DNA of 64,000 nt from Paeniglutamicibacter kerguelensis (GTDB lineage: Bacteria; Actinomycetota; Actinomycetes; Actinomycetales; Micrococcaceae), in contig NZ_JAGIOF010000004.1 of assembly GCF_017876535.1 (NCBI RefSeq), positions 1-64,000 on the forward strand. The letters run 5' to 3'. Position 1 is the stretch's first letter; each line of letters opens with the position of its first letter. Positions 42,985 through 53,186 of the stretch are shown here, in pieces. A model generated the notes under the pieces. The model made no database searches and was not told the origin of the DNA. It saw only the letters and a list, made by a program, of their open reading frames with translations. Position numbers and translations under genes: made by a program.

Positions 42985-42999
42985 AGACATCCGATGTCT
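42985..42999. promoter_or_regulatory. Operator A of the fucose regulon (regulator promoter)
   Basis: Perfect 15-bp palindrome AGACATCCGATGTCT directly upstream of the -10 box of the regulator gene. This is the best match to the shared ACATCSGATGT motif and implies autoregulation. Confidence 0.8.
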
Positions 43000-43004
43000 A
43001 GACT
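42999..43004 (+). promoter_or_regulatory. Leaderless -10 box of the GntR regulator gene (TAGACT)
   Basis: TAGACT, 6 nt before ATG 43011; it shares its first base with operator A. Confidence 0.6.
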
Positions 43005-43010
43005 GGGTAT

Positions 43011-43688
43011 ATGGCAGTCACAGACGCAGCGATCACGCGCATCAAAGAAATGATTCTTGGCGGAGAGCTTTCGCCCGGAGACCGGCTCCCCCCTGAAAAA
43101 GAACTTTCGGAGCGTCTTGGCCTTTCCCGTTCTTCACTTCGCGAGGCGGTCAAGGCGCTGGAACTCATCCGCGTCCTGGACGTGCGGCGTGGAGACGGAA
43201 CCTATGTCACCAGCCTTGAACCGCACCTGCTCACCGAGGCCATGTCGTTCGTTGTCGAGCTTCATCAGGATTCATCGATCCTTGAACTGCTCGAGGTCCG
43301 GCGGATCCTCGAACCGTCCGCGGCTGGCCTGGCGGCCCAGCGGCGCAGCGAAGAGCAGCTCGAACGACTCGAGGAATCTGTGCACGCGGTCACCGCGGAC
43401 ACCGACATCCAGGAGCTGGTCACCCATGACTTGCTTTTCCACTCGATCATCACCGAAGCCGCGGGAAACGCCTACCTCGGGACCCTGTTGGAGGCTCTCT
43501 CCAGCAACACCGTGCGCGCTCGCATCTGGCGCGGACTGACCCAGGATCACGCGGTTCAACGCACATTGGACGAGCACCAAGCGATCCTTTCGGCAATTCG
43601 CTCCGGTGACACCGAATTGGCCAAGGCGCTGGTTACCGCCCACGTCTCCGGCGTGGAGACCTGGCTCAGGCAATCCACTGCCAGCTGA
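43011..43688 (+). CDS. GntR/FadR-type regulator, probable repressor of L-fucose genes
   Basis: 225 residues. The N-terminal winged helix (LSPGDRLPPEKELSERLGLSRSSLREAVKALELI, then the wing DVRRGDGTYV) is followed by an FCD ligand-binding domain with metal-site candidates in THDLLFHSII, DEHQAILSAI and TAHVSG. FCD regulators bind sugar acids or their breakdown products. The palindrome at its own promoter (42985-42999) recurs at the two operon control regions (47605-47617; 51424-51436 and 51490-51498), so it most likely represses all of them. The inducer is inferred to be a pathway intermediate such as L-fuconate or its keto-deoxy derivative. Confidence 0.88.
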   Translation: MAVTDAAITRIKEMILGGELSPGDRLPPEKELSERLGLSRSSLREAVKALELIRVLDVRRGDGTYVTSLEPHLLTEAMSFVVELHQDSSILELLEVRRILEPSAAGLAAQRRSEEQLERLEESVHAVTADTDIQELVTHDLLFHSIITEAAGNAYLGTLLEALSSNTVRARIWRGLTQDHAVQRTLDEHQAILSAIRSGDTELAKALVTAHVSGVETWLRQSTAS

Positions 43689-43701
43689 CGCCAAAGATTC
43701 G

Positions 43702-43742
43702 GCGGGGCCCGGAGATCCGCCTGATGGATCTCCGGGCCCCGC
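43702..43742 (+). terminator. Terminator after the regulator gene
   Basis: 17-bp stem GCGGGGCCCGGAGATCC (43702-43718 with 43726-43742) followed by TTCTTTG. Confidence 0.8.
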
Positions 43743-43756
43743 TTCTTTGACATGGG

Positions 43757-43818
43757 AAAGCCCGGTTTCACCGTCTCCCACCCGCCAAGCGGACGGGAGA
43801 CGGCGAAACCGGGCTTTT
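43757..43818. terminator. Terminator of the ABC importer operon
   Basis: Long stem AAAGCCCGGTTTC..CCGTCTCCC with its complement (43757-43818). It has T runs on both sides and so can act bidirectionally. Confidence 0.8.
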
Positions 43819-43909
43819 GTGCTGAAACGATCCGCTCCGGCCACCCACGGCCGAGGCAATCCCTGCTTTTCAGCGGGCGGCTTCCGCGATGTACGGCAGC
43901 CCTTCAGTC

Positions 43910-44896
43910 CTACTCGTAGAGGTTGGCCTTGATCTTCGCGTCGTCAATGTTCTTGGCGTCATACCAGTAGAAGCCGGTGTCGATGACCTTTTCGACGGTC
44001 TCGCCCTTGATGGCCGCAGCAGCTGCCTTGACGGTCTCGTAGCCGATGCCGACCGGGTTCTGGGTGACTGCGCCGGCCATCAGGCCCGAGCGGATGGCGT
44101 CCATCTGGGCCTTGCCGGAGTCGAAGCCCACAACCGTGAGCTTGCCCTTGAGTCCGAGCTCTTCAACCGCCTTGACCACGCCGATCGCCGAGCCTTCGTT
44201 GGTGCCGTAGATGCCCTTCAGGTTCGGGTTGCCGTTGATGATGGTCTTGGCCAGGTTCGCCGATTCAAGCTGGTCGCCGCCGCCGTACTGGACCGTGACG
44301 ATCTTGATGTCCGGGTGGTTGGCTGCCATGTACTCGGTGAATCCATCGCGGCGGTCCTTGCCCGAGGTGGAGGTCTGGTCGTGGGCGACGACGGCAATCT
44401 CGCCCGAGCCGCCGATGAGTTCGGCCATGTGCTTGGCGGCCTCGGCTGCTGCCGCCTTGTTGTCGGTTGCCGCGGTGGCCACGGGAATCGCCGAATCGAC
44501 GCCGGAGTCGAAGGCGATCACCGGGATGTTCTTTGCCTTGGCGTCATCCAGGATCGGGGTGGCAGCCTGCGAGTCGAGCGCGGCGATGCCCAGGGCGGCC
44601 GGGCTCTTGGACATGGCGGTGGTCAGCATCTCGATCTGCTGGGCCACGTCCTTCTCCGTGTTCGGGCCTTCGAAGGTGATCTCGACGCCGTACTCGGTGG
44701 CCGCCTGCTCGGCACCGGCCTTGACCGACTGCCAGAACTGGTGCTGGAATCCCTTGGAAACGATGGCCACGTACGGCTTCTGGCCTTCACTGGTGGCAGC
44801 GGCACCGGCGTCCGGGGTGGTGCTGGTGTCGCATGCGGACAGGGTCAGCGCAAGCATTGACACTGCTGCCAGACCAATGAGCTTCTTACGGAACAT
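43910..44896 (-). CDS. Sugar ABC transporter substrate-binding lipoprotein (ribose type)
   Basis: 328 residues with lipoprotein signal FRKKLIGLAAVSMLALTLSAC. The mature periplasmic-binding-protein type 1 fold (pfam13407-like) shows YVAIVSKGFQHQFWQSVKAGAEQAA, IAALDSQAATPILDDAKAKNIPVIAFDSGV and KGIYGTNEGSAIGVVKAVEELG. It is the last gene of the ATPase-permease-binding protein operon. Because the other operons under the same operator encode L-fucose breakdown, L-fucose (or a fucoside) is the inferred ligand. Confidence 0.88.
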   Translation of the reverse strand: MFRKKLIGLAAVSMLALTLSACDTSTTPDAGAAATSEGQKPYVAIVSKGFQHQFWQSVKAGAEQAATEYGVEITFEGPNTEKDVAQQIEMLTTAMSKSPAALGIAALDSQAATPILDDAKAKNIPVIAFDSGVDSAIPVATAATDNKAAAAEAAKHMAELIGGSGEIAVVAHDQTSTSGKDRRDGFTEYMAANHPDIKIVTVQYGGGDQLESANLAKTIINGNPNLKGIYGTNEGSAIGVVKAVEELGLKGKLTVVGFDSGKAQMDAIRSGLMAGAVTQNPVGIGYETVKAAAAAIKGETVEKVIDTGFYWYDAKNIDDAKIKANLYE

Positions 44897-45044
44897 GACG
44901 TGTACTCCATTTCGTGACGGGAAACTGCGGGCGTACTGCGAGTGGTGATGATGAATGGGTTTCGGCCCCGGACATGGTGCTGGTAGGGCAACAGGGTCCG
45001 GGACGGTGAAAATCCTTGGTGCGGCCGGGGGCAAGCGGCTGCTT

Positions 45045-46085
45045 TTAGCCGGTGCTCTTGTCCTTGCGGCGCAGCATGTCCAGGTATACGGCGAGCAGGA
45101 TGACACTGCCGATGGCCACGGATTGCCATTCCTGCGGAACATTGATGATTCGCAGGCCGCTGGTGAGCACGGACATGATCAGCGCGCCGATCACGGTGCC
45201 GACGATCGAGCCCTTGCCGCCTTGGAGGGACGTGCCCCCGATGACAACGGCGGCGATGGCCTGAAGTTCGTAACCCGCGCCCTGCCCCGGTTGCGCCGAG
45301 TTCAGCCGGGAGGCGATGACCACGCCGGCCAGGCCCGTGAAGGTGCCGGCGAGGGTGTAGATCCACATCTTCCAGCGCCTGACGTTGATGCCCGACAGTG
45401 CCGTTGCCTGCTCGTTGGAGCCGATCGAGTAGGTGTAGCGTCCGATCAGGGTCTTGGAAAGCACTACCCCGGCGATGACTGCCGCGATGAAGAAGATGAA
45501 GACCGCGTTGGGGATGATCAAGCCCGGAATCGACTTGCCCAGCGCCAGCTGGCTGAATCCGGGGGTGTCGTTGAAGTAGATCGGCTTGGTTCCGGAGATG
45601 ACCAGGGCCAGGCCCTGGGCAACCATCATCATGGCCAAAGTGGCGATAAATGGCGGGATGCGCAGGTAGGAGATGAGCACTCCGTTGATCAGGCCGATCA
45701 AGGCACCGGCCAGGATGCCGGCGAGCACGCCGAACGCGAGCGGAAGGCCCATGTAGGTCAGCGTCACCCCGACGATGACCGAGGTCAGGGACATGCCGGT
45801 TCCCACCGAGAGGTCGATGCCGCCGGTGATGATCACGAAGGTCGCACCGAGTGCCAGCAATCCAATGACCACCGTGGAGAGCAGGATGTCGGAGAGGTTC
45901 GATGGGGTCAGGAAAAGCGGATTCAGGATGCCGAAGAGGATCACCAGCACGATCAGGGACCCGAATGCCATCAGCTGCTGCATGCTGGCGCGGGCCCGGA
46001 CCATGAGGTCGGATTCCTTGCGGTTCTGGGGCGGCTTGGCCAACGGCGAGCGGCTGCCGTTTTCAACCGAGGTGGTGGTGCTCAT
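45045..46085 (-). CDS. Sugar ABC transporter permease (RbsC type)
   Basis: 346-residue inner-membrane permease with ~8-10 helices. The RbsC/AraH pattern is seen: NLSDILLSTVVIGLLALGATFVIITGGIDLSVG, IPPFIATLAMMMVAQGLAL, SIGSNEQATALSGINV and LQAIAAVVIGGTSLQGGKGSIVGTVIGALI. The ATG overlaps the ATPase stop in ATGA. A 148-bp gap to the binding-protein gene contains an imperfect hairpin that could adjust subunit ratios. Confidence 0.9.
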   Translation of the reverse strand: MSTTTSVENGSRSPLAKPPQNRKESDLMVRARASMQQLMAFGSLIVLVILFGILNPLFLTPSNLSDILLSTVVIGLLALGATFVIITGGIDLSVGTGMSLTSVIVGVTLTYMGLPLAFGVLAGILAGALIGLINGVLISYLRIPPFIATLAMMMVAQGLALVISGTKPIYFNDTPGFSQLALGKSIPGLIIPNAVFIFFIAAVIAGVVLSKTLIGRYTYSIGSNEQATALSGINVRRWKMWIYTLAGTFTGLAGVVIASRLNSAQPGQGAGYELQAIAAVVIGGTSLQGGKGSIVGTVIGALIMSVLTSGLRIINVPQEWQSVAIGSVILLAVYLDMLRRKDKSTG

Positions 46086-47590
46086 GCTGTTTTTGCTCCT
46101 CGTTCACTCTGCGTGGCAAGTTCCATGATTCGTTCCTGGGTAGCCTCGGCGTTGTCCAGGAATCCGGTGATTCTGCCCTCCGACATCACCGCGATGCGAT
46201 GCGACATGCGCAAGACTTCCGGCAGTTCCGAGGAGATCATGATGATCGACTTGCCGCTGGCGGCAAGTTCGTTGAGCAGGCGGTAGATCTCGTCCTTGGC
46301 GCCCACATCGATGCCGCGCGTTGGTTCGTCGAAGATCAGCACGTCGCAGTCCTTGACCAGCCACTTGGCAATCACGATCTTTTGCTGGTTACCGCCGGAG
46401 AGGTTCTTGGCCTCCTGGTGGATCGATGGCGTCTTGATCCGCAACCGTTCGACCTGTTCACCGGCGATGTACTTGAGCATGCGTCCGTTGATGAAACCGA
46501 ACTTGCTGATCTCTTTCAGGGACGAAAGCATGATGTTCTGCGCGACGTCGGCTTCCAGCATGAGTCCCAGGTGCTTGCGGTCCTCGGAGAGGTAGCCGAT
46601 GCGCAGCTGGGCAGCCCGCGCGGGATTCGGGATGCTCACGGCCTGCCCGTTGAGGATGATCGTCCCGGAGCTCATCTTGTCCGCCCCCACGATTGCCCGG
46701 GCGACCTCGGTGCGGCCGGCGCCCATGAGTCCGGCGAAGCCCAGGATTTCGCCCTTGGCAATGCTGAATGAAATGTCGTTCAGCAGTTCCCTGGTTGAAA
46801 GGTTGCGCACTTCCAGCCGGGTTTCCCTGCCCGCGAGGATGGTTGCCGGGCGGTCGGTTCCGGAGACTTCGCGTCCGACCATCAGGGAGATGACTTCCGG
46901 CATGGTGGTGGTCTCGGTGTCGAGGGTGTCCACGTATTCGCCATCGCGGATCACGGTGATCCGGTCCGAGATGACCTTGAGCTCGTCCATGCGGTGCGAG
47001 ATGTAAATGGCGCCGGTTTCCGGGGTAATGAATCGGCGGATGATCCGATGCAGGGTTTCGACCTCGGCATCGTTGAGCGCGGCGGTCGGCTCATCGAGAA
47101 TCAGCAGCTTCGCGTCGAAGCTCAGTGCCTTGGCGATTTCAACCATCTGCTGCTTGGCGACGGTCAGTTCGGCGACCTGCTGAACCGGGTTGAGGTCCAC
47201 GCCGATCCGGTCGAAAAGTTCGCGGGCCTGGCGGTTGAGCGCCGAGTCGTTGATGAACGGTCCCCGCATGGGTTCGCGGCCCAGGAAGATGTTTTGGGCG
47301 ACGGTCAGGTCGCGCATCAAGTTGAATTCCTGGTGGATGATGCTGACGCCGAGCTCTTGTGCGTGTTTCGGGCCGCTGATGTCCACCTTGTTGCCGCCGA
47401 TGCGGAAGGTTCCCGCGTCGGGAACGTAGATCCCGGACAGGAGCTTCATCAGCGTTGATTTTCCGGCGCCGTTCTCGCCGACCAACGCCAATACTTCACC
47501 GGGGCGGACGTTGAGTTGCATGTTCGCCAAGGCGCGAACGCCGGGGAAGCTTTTGTCGACCCCGTCGATCTCCAGCAAGTACTCGCTCAT
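46082..47590 (-). CDS. Sugar ABC transporter ATP-binding protein (RbsA type)
   Basis: 502 residues containing two ABC ATPase domains. The N-terminal Walker A is GENGAGKSTLMKLLSG with LTVAKQQMVEIAKAL and LLILDEPTAAL. The C-terminal domain has GLMGAGRTEVARA in place of a canonical P-loop, LSGGNQQKIVIAKWL and LIFDEPTRGIDVG. This asymmetry is normal for RbsA/MglA proteins. The ATG at 47590 is preferred over 47596 because AGGAGG is then 8 nt away. Operator B lies just upstream at 47605-47617. Confidence 0.92.
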   Translation of the reverse strand: MSEYLLEIDGVDKSFPGVRALANMQLNVRPGEVLALVGENGAGKSTLMKLLSGIYVPDAGTFRIGGNKVDISGPKHAQELGVSIIHQEFNLMRDLTVAQNIFLGREPMRGPFINDSALNRQARELFDRIGVDLNPVQQVAELTVAKQQMVEIAKALSFDAKLLILDEPTAALNDAEVETLHRIIRRFITPETGAIYISHRMDELKVISDRITVIRDGEYVDTLDTETTTMPEVISLMVGREVSGTDRPATILAGRETRLEVRNLSTRELLNDISFSIAKGEILGFAGLMGAGRTEVARAIVGADKMSSGTIILNGQAVSIPNPARAAQLRIGYLSEDRKHLGLMLEADVAQNIMLSSLKEISKFGFINGRMLKYIAGEQVERLRIKTPSIHQEAKNLSGGNQQKIVIAKWLVKDCDVLIFDEPTRGIDVGAKDEIYRLLNELAASGKSIIMISSELPEVLRMSHRIAVMSEGRITGFLDNAEATQERIMELATQSERGAKTA

Positions 47591-47604
47591 ATCCATACCC
47601 TCCT

Positions 47605-47617
47605 AACATCGGATGTT
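47605..47617. promoter_or_regulatory. Operator B of the fucose regulon (ABC operon)
   Basis: Perfect 13-bp palindrome AACATCGGATGTT between the predicted transcription start and the Shine-Dalgarno of the ATPase gene. Confidence 0.8.
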
Positions 47618-47624
47618 TAGTAAA

Positions 47625-47653
47625 AAACTACTCGTGAATCAGATCACATGCAA
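47625..47653 (-). promoter_or_regulatory. Promoter of the ABC importer operon
   Basis: Minus strand -35 TTGCAT (47648-47653), 17-bp spacer, -10 TAGTTT (47625-47630). Predicted start near 47618, so operator B covers +1 onward. Confidence 0.6.
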
Positions 47654-47700
47654 CCTAAAAGCTCCAAACAATTGCATTTTCAATCAATTCCGCGCTTGAT

Positions 47701-48561
47701 TCATCCGATCTTTGATCGGAGGTTTGGGTAAACTCGTCGTGCGGTCCCGGCCCAGAGGGACTCCTGTTCGGCCACCGCGAGCGTTCCCACCAGGGTTTCA
47801 AACACCCGCAAGGTCGGCGCGTAACCGCCGGCCGGAACCGTCATTGGCCAGTCGCCGCCGTACATCATGCGGCCCGGGCCGAAGGCTTCCAGCGCAACGT
47901 CAAAGGCCGGCCGCAGCTTGGAGACGTCATAGCCTGCATGCGGGATGCGCAGGCCCGAGAGCTTGGTGAAAACCTGGGGCAGTTGCGCCAGCCGCGTGAA
48001 GGAATCCCGCCAGGCGGCAAATGCGCCATCGCTGGAACCCAGCGGCGGCTTGGCCAGATGGTCGACCACGATCCGCAGGTCCGGGTGCCTTGCTGCCACA
48101 CGGAGCGCCTGGTCCAGGTGCCGGGGGAAAGCGTCGGGGATATCCAGCGGGATGTCGTGCTTCGCCAGCAACTCAAGGGACGCCGAGACGTCGGGTCGCT
48201 CGAGGAAGTCCGCCCGTGGATCGTCGTGCACCAGATGGCGCACCCCGCAGAACGGACCCGACCCGCGCCACGACTCGAGCTGGTCCTCGAGCGATTGAGG
48301 CGCGCAGAGATCCACCCAGCCGACGACCCCGAGCACCCAGTCATACTCGGCCGCAACGCCCAGCATGAACTCGGTGTCGGCCAGGGTGTCGGCGGCCTGC
48401 ACCAGGATTGCGCCATCGACGGCGCTGTCCGCCAGCTCCGCCTCCGCCATGCTCGGCGTGAAGTCCGCATACAGCTCCCCCAAGTCCGGGGTGAGCCACG
48501 GGTACGCCCCGGGGTCGCCAATCTGCCACAGATGCAGATGCGCATCCAGTCGCTCCATCAT
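47701..48561 (-). CDS. L-fuconolactone hydrolase (amidohydrolase family)
   Basis: 286-residue amidohydrolase of the 2-pyrone-4,6-dicarboxylate lactonase type. The metal motif DAHLHLW is at residues 6-12, followed by GVRHLVHDDPRADFL, IVVDHLAKPP and YGGDWPMTVP. Homologues in oxidative fucose and rhamnose pathways open the sugar 1,5- or 1,4-lactone to the aldonate. It is the last gene of the operon dehydratase-mutarotase-dehydrogenase-lactonase. AAGGGGG precedes two tandem ATG codons (48561, 48558). Confidence 0.87.
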   Translation of the reverse strand: MMERLDAHLHLWQIGDPGAYPWLTPDLGELYADFTPSMAEAELADSAVDGAILVQAADTLADTEFMLGVAAEYDWVLGVVGWVDLCAPQSLEDQLESWRGSGPFCGVRHLVHDDPRADFLERPDVSASLELLAKHDIPLDIPDAFPRHLDQALRVAARHPDLRIVVDHLAKPPLGSSDGAFAAWRDSFTRLAQLPQVFTKLSGLRIPHAGYDVSKLRPAFDVALEAFGPGRMMYGGDWPMTVPAGGYAPTLRVFETLVGTLAVAEQESLWAGTARRVYPNLRSKIG

Positions 48562-48621
48562 TTGCCCCCTTGGGATGGACGGGAAGGCCCTCCATGGGCG
48601 CCCCCAGCATGCGGCTTCCGC

Positions 48622-49623
48622 CTACCGGATGGCCAGTGCGCCATTGAGCAACCTCCTTTGGGCCAACGCGTCCCACAACCCCTCGTCGACGCGGGCATGG
48701 GCACGGGTTGCGTTCACCCGAGCTTGCTCCGGGGTGGAAGCGCCGAGCATCACCGAGACGATGCCCGGGTGCCGCATCGCAAACTGAACGGCGGCGGTGG
48801 GCAGATCGGTGTCGAACTCCGCGGCCACCGCGGCCAGCGCCCTCGCACGTTCAAGGACGTGCGCGGGGGCCGGTTCGTAGTTGTAGTTCGCGTTCCCGGG
48901 AACGACGGCGGAAGCCAGCAACCCGGAGTTGTAGACACCCACGTTGACGATGCCCACGGACCGTTCCATGCACAGGGGCAGCAGTTCTGCCGCGGCGGGC
49001 TGTTCCAGCAGCGTGTATCTGCCCGCGAGCATCACCAGGTCAAGGTCGGCCCGCCGCACGCATTCGGCGGCTGCACCGGTGGAGTTGGTGCCCACCCCGA
49101 TGGCCTGGACGAGCCCCTCCGCGCGGAGCTTTTCGAGCACGGGCAGGCCCTGGACGATGCCGGATTCAAGGTCGTAGGCATCGGGGTCGTGCAGGAACAC
49201 GATGTCCAGGTAGTCGCTGCCCAGGCGTTCGAGCGTGGACTCGATGCTGGACCGGATGCCGGCATCCGAGGGGTCCCAGCGCCTGCGGGTTGCGGCGGGG
49301 ACCGCGAAGCCCTCGTCATCGAGTTCCCCGGCAAAGCCCGCGTTGGGTTCGAGGACCCGCCCGACCTTGCTGGAGAGCACAAGGTCCTCGCGGACGACAC
49401 CGCCGCCGAGCCACGCACCGATGCGGGACTCGGAAAGCCCGAGCCCATAGTGCGGTGCCGTGTCGAAGTAGCGGGCACCGGAATCGTAGGCCGCCTGCAG
49501 CGTCGCCTGCGCGGTGGCCTCATCCATCGGCCGGTAGAGGTTGCCAAGCGCCGCCGCGCCGAATCCGAGGTTTCGCCCGAAACCCGGGTCTCCGAACCCG
49601 AGGCCGGCCAGGGACTCGCGCAT
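48622..49623 (-). CDS. L-fucose dehydrogenase (aldo/keto reductase family)
   Basis: 333-residue aldo/keto reductase. The tetrad is Asp and Tyr in YFDTAPHYGLG, Lys in LVLSSKVGR and His in IVFLHDPDAY. C-terminal cofactor contacts lie in VMLGASTPEQARVN. It is of the type acting as L-fucose or D-threo-aldose 1-dehydrogenase, oxidising the sugar C1 to the lactone. The ATG overlaps the mutarotase stop by one base (TGATG), so translation is coupled. Its position supports L-fucose as substrate. Confidence 0.86.
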   Translation of the reverse strand: MRESLAGLGFGDPGFGRNLGFGAAALGNLYRPMDEATAQATLQAAYDSGARYFDTAPHYGLGLSESRIGAWLGGGVVREDLVLSSKVGRVLEPNAGFAGELDDEGFAVPAATRRRWDPSDAGIRSSIESTLERLGSDYLDIVFLHDPDAYDLESGIVQGLPVLEKLRAEGLVQAIGVGTNSTGAAAECVRRADLDLVMLAGRYTLLEQPAAAELLPLCMERSVGIVNVGVYNSGLLASAVVPGNANYNYEPAPAHVLERARALAAVAAEFDTDLPTAAVQFAMRHPGIVSVMLGASTPEQARVNATRAHARVDEGLWDALAQRRLLNGALAIR

Positions 49624-49958
49624 CACTGCTGCTCCCCCGCCGGGTCTTGGGCGAACGACCAGACCATCGGGATCCCGCTGTCGTCCCCGGAATAGTCGTC
49701 GCCAACCTCGAGCAGTTCCGCCATTTGGGCCTGCCAAGCAATGTTGGCCGGGTGCTCGGCGAGGCCAAGGCGCATGGCACGGTAGTCCTCGACTTGGACC
49801 AGGTGGAAGAGTTCGCGGCCGCTGCGCCAGATGCGCCAGTCCCGGACCCCGGCGGCCTTGAGCGCCGCGTGCAGTTGGGGTGCAAGCGATGCATGGATCC
49901 GGTCGTAGTCGGATTCCCTGCCCTGCTTGAGCCTGGTGTTTAGTGCGATGGTTTCCAT
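49623..49958 (-). CDS. L-fucose/L-rhamnose mutarotase (DUF718/RhaM family)
   Basis: 111-residue ferredoxin-like mutarotase that interconverts alpha and beta anomers. Conserved features: ALNTRLKQGRESDYDRIHASLAPQL with the catalytic-region His, WRIWRSGRELFHLVQVEDY, and WQAQMAELLEV. Although the family is named for rhamnose, fucose loci carry it too. It lies 6 bp after the fuconate dehydratase gene. Confidence 0.87.
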   Translation of the reverse strand: METIALNTRLKQGRESDYDRIHASLAPQLHAALKAAGVRDWRIWRSGRELFHLVQVEDYRAMRLGLAEHPANIAWQAQMAELLEVGDDYSGDDSGIPMVWSFAQDPAGEQQ

Positions 49959-49964
49959 CGGGTC

Positions 49965-51320
49965 TCAGGCCTCCGTTGTCCCGGCGTTGCCATTCATCGA
50001 CAAGGCACCACTGAGCGCCAAGTCATTTGCCCATTCAACACCATTCGGGAACTCAAAGTCGGCAAGTGTTTGGGCAATCATCTGTGTTCCGGCCCCGGGC
50101 ACGCTCGGCGGCCAGTAGGCGCCGGAGTGGACGTTGATCGGCTCGACAAAGTGTTCGTGCAGGTGGTCAACGAATTCGATGTAGCGTTCCTCCGTGGTCC
50201 CGGATACGGCAACGAAGTCGAACATGGACAGGTGCTGAACCGCCTCGCACAACCCCACGCCACCCGCGTGCGGGCAGACCCTGACACCGAACTTTGCCGC
50301 AAGCAGCAGGATCGCGATGTTTTCGTTGACCCCCGCCACGCGGGCGGCGTCGATCTGCAGCACCTGCAACGCGTCGGCCTGCAGGAATTGCTTGAAGAGC
50401 ACCCGGTTCTGGCAATGCTCGCCGGTGGCCACGGGGATCGGATGGACGCCGCGGGCGATGGCCGCGTGGCCCAGGATGTCATCGGGGCTGGTGGGCTCCT
50501 CGATCCAGGCGATGTCGAATTCGGCCAGGTGACTCATCCATTCGATGGCCTCGGCGACATCCCAGCGCTGGTTCGCGTCGACGGCGATCTTGATGTCGGG
50601 GCCGACCACCGAGCGTGCGGTGCGCAGCCGCCGGATGTCATCGGCGAGGTCGGCGCCGACCTTCAACTTGATTTGGGTGAAGCCGTCCTTGACGGCCTCC
50701 GCGGCCAGGCGGGATAGCTTTTCGTCGGAGTATCCGAGCCAACCCGGGGTGGTGGTGTACGCGGGGTATCCCTTGGCCAACAGTTCCTCGGTGCGCGCCG
50801 CACGGCCCGGAAGGGCCCTGCCGAGGATTTCCAGCGCGTCCTCGCGGGTCAGCGCGTCGGAAAGGTATCGGAAATCCACGAGGTCAACGAGTTCCTCGGG
50901 GCTCATCGAGGCAAGCAACGCCCAGAGCGGCTTGCCTTCTCGCTTGGCCTTGAGGTCCCAGAGCGCGTTGACGACCGCCCCGATCGCCATGTGCATGACG
51001 CCCTTTTCCGGGCCCAGCCAGCGCAGCTGCGAGTCATGGACCAGCCAACGCCAGGTCGTTCCCATGTTGCCCAACAATTTCTCGACATTGCGTCCCACGA
51101 GGAATGGCGCAAGGGCCTGGATGGCGGCGGCCTGCACGTCATTGCCGCGTCCGATGGTGAACACGAAACCGTGTCCCTCAAGCCCATCCTGGGCATCCGT
51201 TTCCAGCACCACGTAGGCCGCCGAGTAGTCGGGGTCCGTGTTCATGGCATCGGAGCCGTCAAGCTCCCGAGAGGTGGGGAAACGGACATCGGTGGTGCTC
51301 AAGGCCGTGATCGTGCTCAT
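49965..51320 (-). CDS. L-fuconate dehydratase (enolase superfamily)
   Basis: 451 residues, very close to the characterised L-fuconate dehydratase of Xanthomonas campestris. Shared segments include [60 protein letters not shown] and [11 protein letters not shown]. The catalytic Lys-x-Lys is IKLKVGA. Metal ligands are in [18 protein letters not shown] and GEHCQNR, and the His-Asp dyad is near [10 protein letters not shown]. It dehydrates L-fuconate to 2-keto-3-deoxy-L-fuconate and is the strongest evidence for fucose as the substrate of the cluster. ATG 51320 has GGAGGA upstream. Confidence 0.95.
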
Positions 51321-51417
51321 GTGTCCTCCAAGTGGTGGATCCCGCGGTTTCGTGGGGGTGATGCCTTCGCCCGGGCCGGCAGGGCCCGCCGGAGCGAGAT
51401 CGCTTTCGTCTACCCCG

Positions 51418-51447
51418 AGAGTAGACATCGGATGTTTATGTTGTCAA
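51418..51447 (-). promoter_or_regulatory. Promoter of the fuconate dehydratase operon
   Basis: Minus strand -35 TTGACA (51442-51447), 18-bp spacer, -10 TACTCT (51418-51423). Operator C fills most of the spacer. Confidence 0.65.
51424..51436. promoter_or_regulatory. Operator C of the fucose regulon (catabolic operon)
   Basis: GACATCGGATGTT, with a perfect ACATC-G-GATGT core, between the -35 and -10 boxes of the leftward promoter. Confidence 0.8.
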
Positions 51448-51468
51448 AGGTTCATTTTGAGCTAAAGT
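51441..51468 (+). promoter_or_regulatory. Promoter of the hydrolase-SDR operon
   Basis: Plus strand -35 TTGTCA (51441-51446), 16-bp spacer, -10 TAAAGT (51463-51468). Its -35 box overlaps that of the leftward promoter. Confidence 0.6.
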
Positions 51469-51489
51469 TGTGAATCAGCACACTCGAAT

Positions 51490-51498
51490 CATCCGATG
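51490..51498. promoter_or_regulatory. Operator D of the fucose regulon (weaker)
   Basis: CATCCGATG core without the outer A/T pair, located between the rightward promoter and the ATG at 51511. Confidence 0.55.
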
Positions 51499-51510
51499 CT
51501 TGGAGTCAGA

Positions 51511-52407
51511 ATGAAGTTTGCACGAATCGGCGAACCCGGAGCGGAACGCCCCATCGCGCTGGACAACGAGGGGCGAGCCTTCGATATTTCCAGCACCACA
51601 CCCGACATCAACGGGGCCTTCCTTGCGGCGGACGGCATCGCCGCGGTCCGTGCGGGGCTCGCCGCCGGAAGCTACCCGGAACTGGGCTGGAGCCTGGCCG
51701 CGGGCGAGGCTTTCAGCGCCGCCCCCACGGGCGAACGCATCGGCTCGCCCGTCGCACGTCCCGGAAACGTCATTTGCATTGGCATGAACTACGCGGCCCA
51801 CGCCCGTGAATCGGGGGCCGAACCTCCGACGATTCCGGTGGTGTTCCTGAAGCCCGCCAACACCGTTGCTGGCCCGTTCGACCCGGCCCCGATCCCGCCG
51901 TCGGCCCAAAAGTACGACTGGGAGGTCGAACTGGGCATCGTCATTGGCGCCCATGCGAAGTACCTGCCCTCGGCGGAAGCGGCCAAGGACGTCATTGCCG
52001 GTTTGCTGATCGCCAACGACCTGTCCGAACGCGAATACCAAATCCCCGGGGCGGCAGGCCAATGGACCAAGGGCAAGTCCCTGCCGCAGTCCACGCCGCT
52101 GGGCCCGTTCCTGGTTCCGGCCGATGAAATCGACGGACACAACCTTGGCTGCCGTTCATGGATCAACGGGGAAATCCGCCAGGACTCGAGCACCGCGGAC
52201 TTCATCTTCGATTTGCCCACCGTGGTCCACCACCTGAGCCAGTACATGGCCCTGGAACCGGGCGATGTCATCCTCACCGGCACCCCTGAGGGCGTCGCCC
52301 TCTCCGGCCGTTTCCCGTACCTCGCCGAGGGCGATGTCGGGGAGTTCGAAATCCAGCAGCTTGGCCGCCAACGCCAGGTATTCTTCCGAGAGCAGGTCAA
52401 CGCATGA
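51511..52407 (+). CDS. 2,4-diketo-3-deoxy-L-fuconate hydrolase (fumarylacetoacetase family)
   Basis: 298 residues. The FAH-fold C-terminal domain carries metal ligands in YDWEVELGIVIG and the family segments VICIGMNYAAHARESG, VFLKPANTV and IANDLSEREYQ. Homologues in oxidative fucose pathways split 2,4-diketo-3-deoxy-L-fuconate into pyruvate and L-lactate. ATG 51511 is chosen because TGGAG lies about 6 nt upstream; an ATG at 51496 has no such signal. It overlaps the SDR gene by 4 nt (ATGA). Confidence 0.9.
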   Translation: MKFARIGEPGAERPIALDNEGRAFDISSTTPDINGAFLAADGIAAVRAGLAAGSYPELGWSLAAGEAFSAAPTGERIGSPVARPGNVICIGMNYAAHARESGAEPPTIPVVFLKPANTVAGPFDPAPIPPSAQKYDWEVELGIVIGAHAKYLPSAEAAKDVIAGLLIANDLSEREYQIPGAAGQWTKGKSLPQSTPLGPFLVPADEIDGHNLGCRSWINGEIRQDSSTADFIFDLPTVVHHLSQYMALEPGDVILTGTPEGVALSGRFPYLAEGDVGEFEIQQLGRQRQVFFREQVNA

Positions 52408-53186
52408 GCGAATTAACTTCCACCCCGGCAACCCAGGACATGGCCGGCCTGCGTGCAATAGTCACCGGCGGGGCATCTGGCATCGGAGCGGCAATTGCCG
52501 CTACCCTTGCCGACCGCGGGGCCACCGTTGCCGTGTTGGACATCGACACCGCAACCGCCGACGCCCGCCATATCCCCTTCACCTGCGACGTAGCGAACGC
52601 CAACTCCGTGAATGATGCAGTCTCCGGGGCTGCCCGGGCCTTGGGAGGAATCGACATTGTCATCAACAACGCCGGAATCGGCGCCCAGGGCACCGTCGCC
52701 GATAACGACGACGACGAGTGGCTGCGCGTGCTGAACATCAATGTGGTGGGCATGGCCCGGGTCTCCCGCGCCGCACTGCCGCACCTGCGTGAATCAAGGG
52801 CCGCGGCCATCGTCAACACGTGCTCGATTGCCGCAACTGCGGGCCTGCCGCAACGGGCACTGTATTCCGCGTCCAAGGGTGCCGTGTACTCGTTGACCCT
52901 GGCCATGGCCGCCGATCACGTACGCGAGGGAATCCGCGTCAATGCGGTGAACCCCGGCACCGCCGACACCCCGTGGATCGGCCGGCTCATGGATGCGGCG
53001 GACGACCCGGTTGCCGAGCGGGCCGCGTTGAACGCGCGGCAACCCCACGGCCGGATGGTTGCGGCGGAAGAGGTTGCCGGTGCCGTCGCCTACCTGGCCA
53101 GCCCTCTGTCGGGTTCGACCAACGGCGTGGCCCTGGCCGTCGACGGCGGCATGCAGGGTCTTCGCCTGCGCCCGGTCGGAAGCTAG
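52404..53186 (+). CDS. 2-keto-3-deoxy-L-fuconate dehydrogenase (SDR family)
   Basis: 260-residue short-chain dehydrogenase. The NAD-binding motif is VTGGASGIGAAIA, with VLDIDT placing an Asp that favours NAD+, then INNAGIGAQG, catalytic Ser in NTCSIAA and YSASK. It oxidises C4 of 2-keto-3-deoxy-L-fuconate, giving the substrate of the neighbouring hydrolase. Translation is coupled to that gene. The two form the rightward half of the divergent catabolic genes. Confidence 0.9.
   Translation: MSELTSTPATQDMAGLRAIVTGGASGIGAAIAATLADRGATVAVLDIDTATADARHIPFTCDVANANSVNDAVSGAARALGGIDIVINNAGIGAQGTVADNDDDEWLRVLNINVVGMARVSRAALPHLRESRAAAIVNTCSIAATAGLPQRALYSASKGAVYSLTLAMAADHVREGIRVNAVNPGTADTPWIGRLMDAADDPVAERAALNARQPHGRMVAAEEVAGAVAYLASPLSGSTNGVALAVDGGMQGLRLRPVGS

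Follow-up and report, generated by a model that had tools for sequence, protein, structure and literature searches.

Does the 64,000-nucleotide stretch analyzed here (the window), which comprises positions 1 to 64,000 of contig NZ_JAGIOF010000004.1 of Paeniglutamicibacter kerguelensis, encode a regulon for the use of L-fucose, and does one regulator control it? The question is raised by ten genes in the window: a regulator gene on the forward strand, a three-gene ABC importer operon and a four-gene catabolic operon on the reverse strand, and a divergent forward-strand pair encoding an FAA-family hydrolase and a short-chain dehydrogenase/reductase (SDR). An earlier note, made from the letters alone, had proposed an oxidative L-fucose pathway governed by a GntR/FCD regulator at a repeated palindrome, ACATCSGATGT. 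We find it very likely that these genes form an inducible L-fucose utilization regulon under one FCD regulator, and that the regulon includes a remote GH95 alpha-L-fucosidase gene.

The palindrome is exact at all three promoters to which it had been assigned. At the regulator promoter it takes the form AGACATCCGATGTCT (42985–42999, exact core 42987–42997), which aligns in two relatives. The form ACATCGGATGT occurs both at the ABC operon (47606–47616), where it follows the likely transcription start and precedes the Shine-Dalgarno sequence, and as a strong operator between the divergent catabolic operons (51425–51435). The 4.8-Mb genome has five exact ACATCSGATGT sites, three of them in the window. 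A 15-mer, ANACATCNGATGTNT, has three exact places genome-wide—the regulator promoter, the catabolic promoter, and the promoter of the GH95 fucosidase gene—and its reversed pattern has none. At one mismatch, ANACATCNGATGTNT has four further places: one is the ABC promoter, and the other three have no obvious connection with fucose. The remaining exact palindrome in the genome falls inside a zf-UBP reading frame. A weaker operator-like site had also been noted in the leader of the FAA-hydrolase gene (TCATCCGATGC, 51489–51499). Its letters and position are indeed kept in the two nearest relatives, which have TCATCGGATGC and TGATCGGATGC at the same place, but it has two mismatches and means little by score, because such matches (two mismatches or fewer) are no commoner in the window than in shuffles (14 versus a mean of 11.6).

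Conservation of the site was evaluated in 54 relatives' loci, of which 47 had a scorable dehydratase gene. The 250 bp upstream of this gene contained an exact site in 37 cases, a site with one mismatch in 8, and a site with two mismatches in 2, such that 45 of 47 have at most one mismatch; the reversed-pattern control gave 0 of 47 at two mismatches or fewer. Exact sites were also counted in 40 regulator-bearing genomes, chosen by hand from 81 positives among 395 searched, and in 40 regulator-less genomes of the same family, taken mostly in list order. The regulator-bearing genomes had 83 exact sites (35 of 40 genomes), with 46 in clusters and 37 outside, and the regulator-less genomes had nine (9 of 40 genomes); the reversed pattern occurred four times in each set. 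The clusters themselves inflate the contrast between 83 and 9, and the fairer one is between the 37 outside sites and 9. Related loci occur in Microbacteriaceae, a Nocardioides, and a Streptomyces as well, and among the 34 of 80 loci covered by name, those of Agromyces, Leifsonia, Microbacterium, Curtobacterium, Nocardioides, and Streptomyces have a site with at most one mismatch by the dehydratase or FAA-hydrolase gene. In the same set, loci of Cryobacterium, Mycetocola, and Arthrobacter citreus have the regulator but neither a site nor, in the stretch covered, a dehydratase gene. Near fucose genes of this genome and its relatives, the palindrome recurs at 45 of 47 dehydratase genes (with at most one mismatch) and at some GH95 and GH29 genes elsewhere.

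The remote site in P. kerguelensis is located on contig C1 (core 3249340–3249350), 75 bp upstream of the first ATG of the GH95 gene. The encoded protein is 1075 residues in length and has a GH95 catalytic domain (PF22124, 2.2e-139) along with F5/8-type-C domains; reading by eye, we noted a twin-arginine-like stretch at its N-terminus. The site suggests that the regulon extends to this alpha-L-fucosidase gene on another contig. In all, 13 of the 37 outside-cluster exact sites precede fucosidase-domain genes (nine GH95 and four GH29), these being in the P. kerguelensis genome, G022, G037, G212 (three), G238 (two), G246 (two), and G269 (three). The GH95 gene of G212 is also a Pfam match. The gaps from site to start are mostly 20–150 bp, with one of 249 bp; three of the sites lie inside a reading frame, either because the simple gene caller extended it too far upstream or because it is on the other strand. 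The 16 genomes searched have 57 fucosidase genes, or about 3.6 each; at this density, 37 positions picked at random would be expected to yield fewer than 0.1 that near. Within the cluster itself, a GH29 gene adjoins the dehydratase gene in 12 of 16 relatives searched, and is annotated as alpha-L-fucosidase in Arthrobacter sp. ERGS1:01. The 57 GH95 and GH29 domain matches in the 16 genomes consist of the 13 having an exact site upstream, the 12 in-cluster GH29 genes, 24 that were scanned further, and 8 outside the scan. The operator-linked and in-cluster fucosidase genes provide the strongest argument for L-fucose as the sugar: since the same operator stands at the GH95 alpha-L-fucosidase gene, the substrate of the pathway is very probably L-fucose.

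The position of the operator within the promoters suggests how it may act. The dehydratase promoter, TTGACA-N18-TACTCT (51418–51447, reverse strand), was first recognized by eye in the sequence; a subsequent count in relatives showed that their dehydratase sites have TTGACA exactly at that place in 42 of 45 cases, and at the −10 place have TA in 43 of 45 and TANNNT in 35 of 45. The operator fills the spacer between the −35 and −10 boxes, and a bound protein would therefore exclude polymerase, a geometry that fits simple repression. The promoter of the FAA-hydrolase/SDR operon, TTGTCA-N16-TAAAGT (51441–51468, forward strand), was one of two promoter-like sites reported by a consensus scan (1.5 in shuffles), and the region is conserved in two relatives. 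Its −35 box overlaps that of the dehydratase promoter, and it has the strong operator upstream of the −35 box and the weak site in the leader. A candidate ABC promoter, TTGCAT-N17-TAGTTT (47625–47653, reverse strand), was read by eye and was not reported by the scan. Here the operator follows closely on the likely transcription start and precedes GGAGGG; its distance to the start codon is 7–9 bases in the two nearest relatives and 182–193 in ten others. At the regulator promoter, a −10-like TAGACT (42999–43004) abuts the operator and is only six bases from the ATG, for which reason the message is probably leaderless. The idea that every site is placed to block initiation accordingly holds for the dehydratase and regulator promoters, but not for the ABC operon, where the site is downstream of the start, nor for the FAA hydrolase, where the sites are upstream of the −35 box and in the leader. 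We also observed TGTGATCTGATTCACG (47633–47648, reverse strand) between the candidate ABC −35 and −10 boxes. It resembles a CRP/GlxR site; at this place the relative G011 has TGTGAAGTCGTTCACA and G063 has no such sequence. Catabolite control of the ABC promoter is possible.

The gene content agrees with this picture. The FucR-like regulator (43011–43688, forward strand) fits the FadR subfamily of GntR proteins, having a PF00392 winged helix (1.6e-17) and a PF07729 FCD domain (4.9e-28), both above cut-off. The importer, encoded on the reverse strand, consists of a sugar-binding protein (43910–44896; Peripla_BP_4, 2.3e-61), a permease (45045–46085; BPD_transp_2, 1.9e-46), and an RbsA-like ATPase with two ABC domains (46082–47596; ABC_tran, with RbsA the best model but below cut-off), the likely true start of which is at 47590, seven bases after GGAGGG. 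These families fit a ribose-type (CUT2) importer and bear out the earlier assignment of both regulator and transporter. The proposed coupling of the importer to the pathway is likewise favored by the operator at its promoter, which is exact in 12 of 22 relatives' ABC promoters.

The catabolic operon (reverse strand) encodes an Amidohydro_2 protein assigned as L-fuconolactonase (47701–48561; Pfam 2.2e-40), an Aldo_ket_red aldo/keto reductase that is a candidate L-fucose 1-dehydrogenase (48622–49623), a RhaM-family mutarotase (49623–49958; PF05336, 3.9e-18), and an enolase-superfamily L-fuconate dehydratase (49965–51320). The forward-strand pair encodes a candidate 2,4-diketo-3-deoxy-L-fuconate hydrolase of the FAA family (51511–52407; FAA_hydrolase, 5.3e-61) and an SDR that is a candidate L-2-keto-3-deoxyfuconate 4-dehydrogenase (L-KDFDH; 52404–53186). 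All six genes of the six-enzyme route that had been proposed are present, together with the regulator and importer, but the mutarotase stands outside the linear route; the count is more correctly five enzymes of the oxidative L-fucose pathway plus one mutarotase. The dehydratase has the clearest identity, matching the L-fuconate dehydratase of the PDB (2hxt/1yey) at 2e-203 across residues 1–439, far more strongly than L-rhamnonate dehydratase (1.3e-18). Dehydrogenase, lactonase, SDR, and FAA-family hydrolase all occur in one cluster by Pfam family, with finer NCBIfam assignments below cut-off; the sole NCBIfam match of the lactonase is L-fucono-1,5-lactonase (208 bits, cut-off 400). For the SDR, 4dqx is the only PDB match at 1e-38 or better (1.3e-47), and an excerpt of PMC11199699 places this structure beside an assayed type 2 L-KDFDH. 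The same excerpt gives the ligand patterns of types 1–4 as R-T-R-R, R-T-Y-R, R-R-R-T, and R-R-F-T. The four ligand positions of the SDR here are R, T, L, and R by an ungapped, alignment-dependent count from the catalytic Tyr, with the third position matching no type.

What would the regulator sense, and how might it have come to read ACAT? The Asp and three His of the FCD metal site (D140, H144, H189, and H211) are kept in 51 of 51 orthologues and fit a metal-bound acid ligand. All 14 other FCD proteins aligned have them as well, and the four residues therefore give no indication of fucose acids in particular. FadR-subfamily proteins as a class bind carboxylic acids (PMC4494728, in part), and from this class we infer that the inducer is L-fuconate or 2-keto-3-deoxy-L-fuconate. 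According to passages of the same paper, most operators of the subfamily have TKGT and ACMA boxes around three central bases, and some members have other motifs. The operator here departs from the TKGT/ACMA form, with ACAT-CSG-ATGT at structural promoters and one ACCA box in hybrid sites. Because the subfamily has members with other motifs, the ACAT/ATGT boxes constitute a variant motif rather than exclusion from the subfamily.

The hybrid sites, ACATCNGACCA (the ACAT/ACCA form also being written ACATCCGACCA), have as their ACCA half the canonical FadR-subfamily half. They occur 13 bases ahead of the start codon in 20 of 50 relatives' regulator genes (L066–L119), and ahead of three relatives' importer operons. 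A strict hybrid, AAACATCNGACCAWT, is found 19 times in the 40 regulator-bearing genomes, the set scanned for it, and its reversed control is absent from them; 17 of these precede regulator genes, one is 53 bp before a GH29 gene in G022, and one is unassigned. Of the 51 orthologues, 47 have Lys at residue 30 of the regulator, a position that varies among other FCD proteins too. Judged from its location in the Pfam domain, and if the numbering is the same, this residue tentatively corresponds to position 28, at which Arg is reported to prefer G (PMC4494728, in part). One reading, which we regard as possible but somewhat short of probable, is that a FadR-subfamily regulator changed its half-site from TKGT to ACAT, with Lys replacing the common G-reading Arg. 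Catabolic and fucosidase genes would then be strongly controlled through symmetric ACAT/ATGT sites, and mostly the regulator's own gene through asymmetric ACAT/ACCA sites that pair one new half with one of ancestral type.

Several observations weigh against a single L-fucose regulon as set out above. Relatives' regulator promoters are heterogeneous (n = 50), with 21 having the hybrid ACATCNGACCA, 9 having ACATCNGATCA, 2 the full palindrome, 6 only ACATCNG, and 12 none of these; among relatives' ABC promoters (n = 22), 3 are hybrid in addition to the 12 exact ones, and 7 have neither the hybrid nor the palindrome at one mismatch or fewer. Outside clusters, 24 of 37 exact sites precede no recognized fucosidase gene, about a dozen of these sites being inside reading frames, and three (L154, L155, and L156) are about 250 bp upstream of dnaN, perhaps through inherited chance. 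The 24 fucosidase-domain genes scanned further include two with a one-mismatch site, one with a hybrid, and 21 with neither a full nor a hybrid site, three high-scoring GH95 genes among them; we reject, on this count, the notion that fucosidase genes generally carry a site. For the cluster proteins, no matched curated NCBIfam model reaches its own cut-off, and binding, repression, inducer, transport specificity, secretion, and enzyme activities are all deduced from sequence.

Three other explanations were weighed against these data. The sites before dnaN in related genomes and the one within the zf-UBP frame are what would be seen if the palindromes were chance occurrences or general sites of another system, but this is extremely improbable in view of the conserved position ahead of the dehydratase gene and of the site counts, 37 outside clusters in the 40 regulator-bearing genomes and 9 in the 40 regulator-less ones (reversed pattern, four in each set); chance was rejected on these counts. 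It is quite unlikely that the enzymes mainly serve a related sugar (L-rhamnose, L-galactose, or D-arabinose), with fucose use incidental. Such a role would accord with the mutarotase being of the RhaM family, with L-galactose dehydrogenases being the nearest solved structures to the aldo/keto reductase, and with the FAA hydrolase having a rhamnonate-route hydrolase as its best curated model (NCBIfam, below cut-off) and 8gsr, an L-2,4-diketo-3-deoxyrhamnonate hydrolase, among its PDB relatives (2.5e-48). The dehydratase similarity decides otherwise, as do the operator at alpha-L-fucosidase genes in seven genomes and the GH29 gene within relatives' clusters, and the three sugars were rejected as the true substrate on these grounds. 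Unlikely, too, is that a different regulator binds the palindrome or that the FCD protein activates its targets and does not repress them. The link between regulator and palindrome is drawn from sequence, and 12 of 50 relatives' regulator promoters have no scored form; however, site numbers track regulator presence across genomes, sites abut the regulator gene in P. kerguelensis and its two nearest relatives, and a position within the −35/−10 spacer fits repression better than activation. The comparative evidence of conserved sites that track the regulator therefore supports the proposal that one FCD regulator acts on all three units of the window.

Further sites were observed in relatives. 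Two of the 24 non-fucosidase sites stand ahead of genes encoding a sugar-binding protein (G170) and an MFS-type sugar porter (G230). No ABC genes were seen in the clusters of these two genomes, and the two proteins may be alternative transporters, although the flanks of the sites do not fully fit the wider motif. In L151 (G308:C40, 2206–3486), an exact operator is 50 bp upstream of a gene for a 426-residue protein, and in L161 (G022:C5, 1939–4014) one is at the start of a gene for a 691-residue protein. Neither protein has a Pfam match, and both are possible further regulon members. In L112 and L113, a second dehydratase gene (about 60% identical) adjoins a regulator paralogue (41–44%), and L112 has an exact ACATCCGATGT between the two; two paralogous regulators may share one operator there.

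The route resembles the oxidative, non-phosphorylating L-fucose pathway of Xanthomonas campestris and Herbaspirillum huttiense, as described in part in PMC11199699: the steps are the same, the dehydratase is very close to the solved 1yey/2hxt, and the nearest solved structure to the SDR is the one placed beside the assayed type 2 enzyme. The cluster here differs in having an ABC importer and an FCD regulator, and in an SDR lacking the type 1 ligand pattern by the ungapped count. Fucose uptake by ABC systems has been predicted in Actinobacteria, Clostridia, and Halomonas, likewise joined to fucose catabolic genes (excerpts of PMC5583593 and PMC5507952), and the ABC–fucose coupling is therefore not new in kind; the excerpts compare the Actinobacteria and Clostridia system with AraF, and we set it beside the present importer by description. 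The regulator shares with the FadR-subfamily proteins DgoR, LldR, and PdhR (PMC4494728, in part) its domain make-up, an 11-bp operator with three central bases, and control of an organic-acid route; its boxes are ACAT/ATGT rather than TKGT/ACMA, with the hybrid ACAT/ACCA at many relatives' regulator promoters. Campylobacter jejuni FucR is also a fucose-induced repressor of a fucose operon, but belongs to the IclR family (PMC12566272, in part). In open-licence papers we found no description of this regulator, operator, or fucosidase link. The enzymes are thus those of a known pathway, while the regulator and operator look new, within a known family and with a variant motif.

The cluster lies on a contig of 515,524 bp (C4) separate from the 4.18-Mb C1, and within the genus the regulator is confined to 2 of 15 genomes, P. 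kerguelensis included. Arthrobacter sp. ERGS1:01 has a related cluster on a 754-kb circular plasmid, which was the best match in a plasmid search (28% covered); no plasmid record contained 80% of the cluster. Location on a secondary or mobile replicon is possible.

In the regulon we propose, a dimer of the FCD regulator would occupy the ACATCSGATGT operators when fucose is absent, repressing its own gene, the ABC importer, both catabolic operons, and the remote GH95 alpha-L-fucosidase, which is probably secreted. At the dehydratase promoter, repressor bound between the −35 and −10 boxes would shut out RNA polymerase. Fucose released by the fucosidase would be taken up by the importer, oxidized, and dehydrated, and an acid intermediate (L-fuconate or 2-keto-3-deoxy-L-fuconate) held in the metal-type FCD pocket would release the repressor; pyruvate and L-lactate would be the end products.

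The regulator, operator, promoters, and targets described here make up a testable regulon for L-fucose use in Micrococcaceae, in which the shared operator ties the ABC importer and the GH95 fucosidase to fucose beyond homology alone. How GntR proteins change half-site specificity could be studied in the hybrid operators, which form a natural series. If the proposed half-site change is correct, the use of two operator classes would represent a naturally occurring intermediate in operator evolution and would provide built-in graded control within one regulon.

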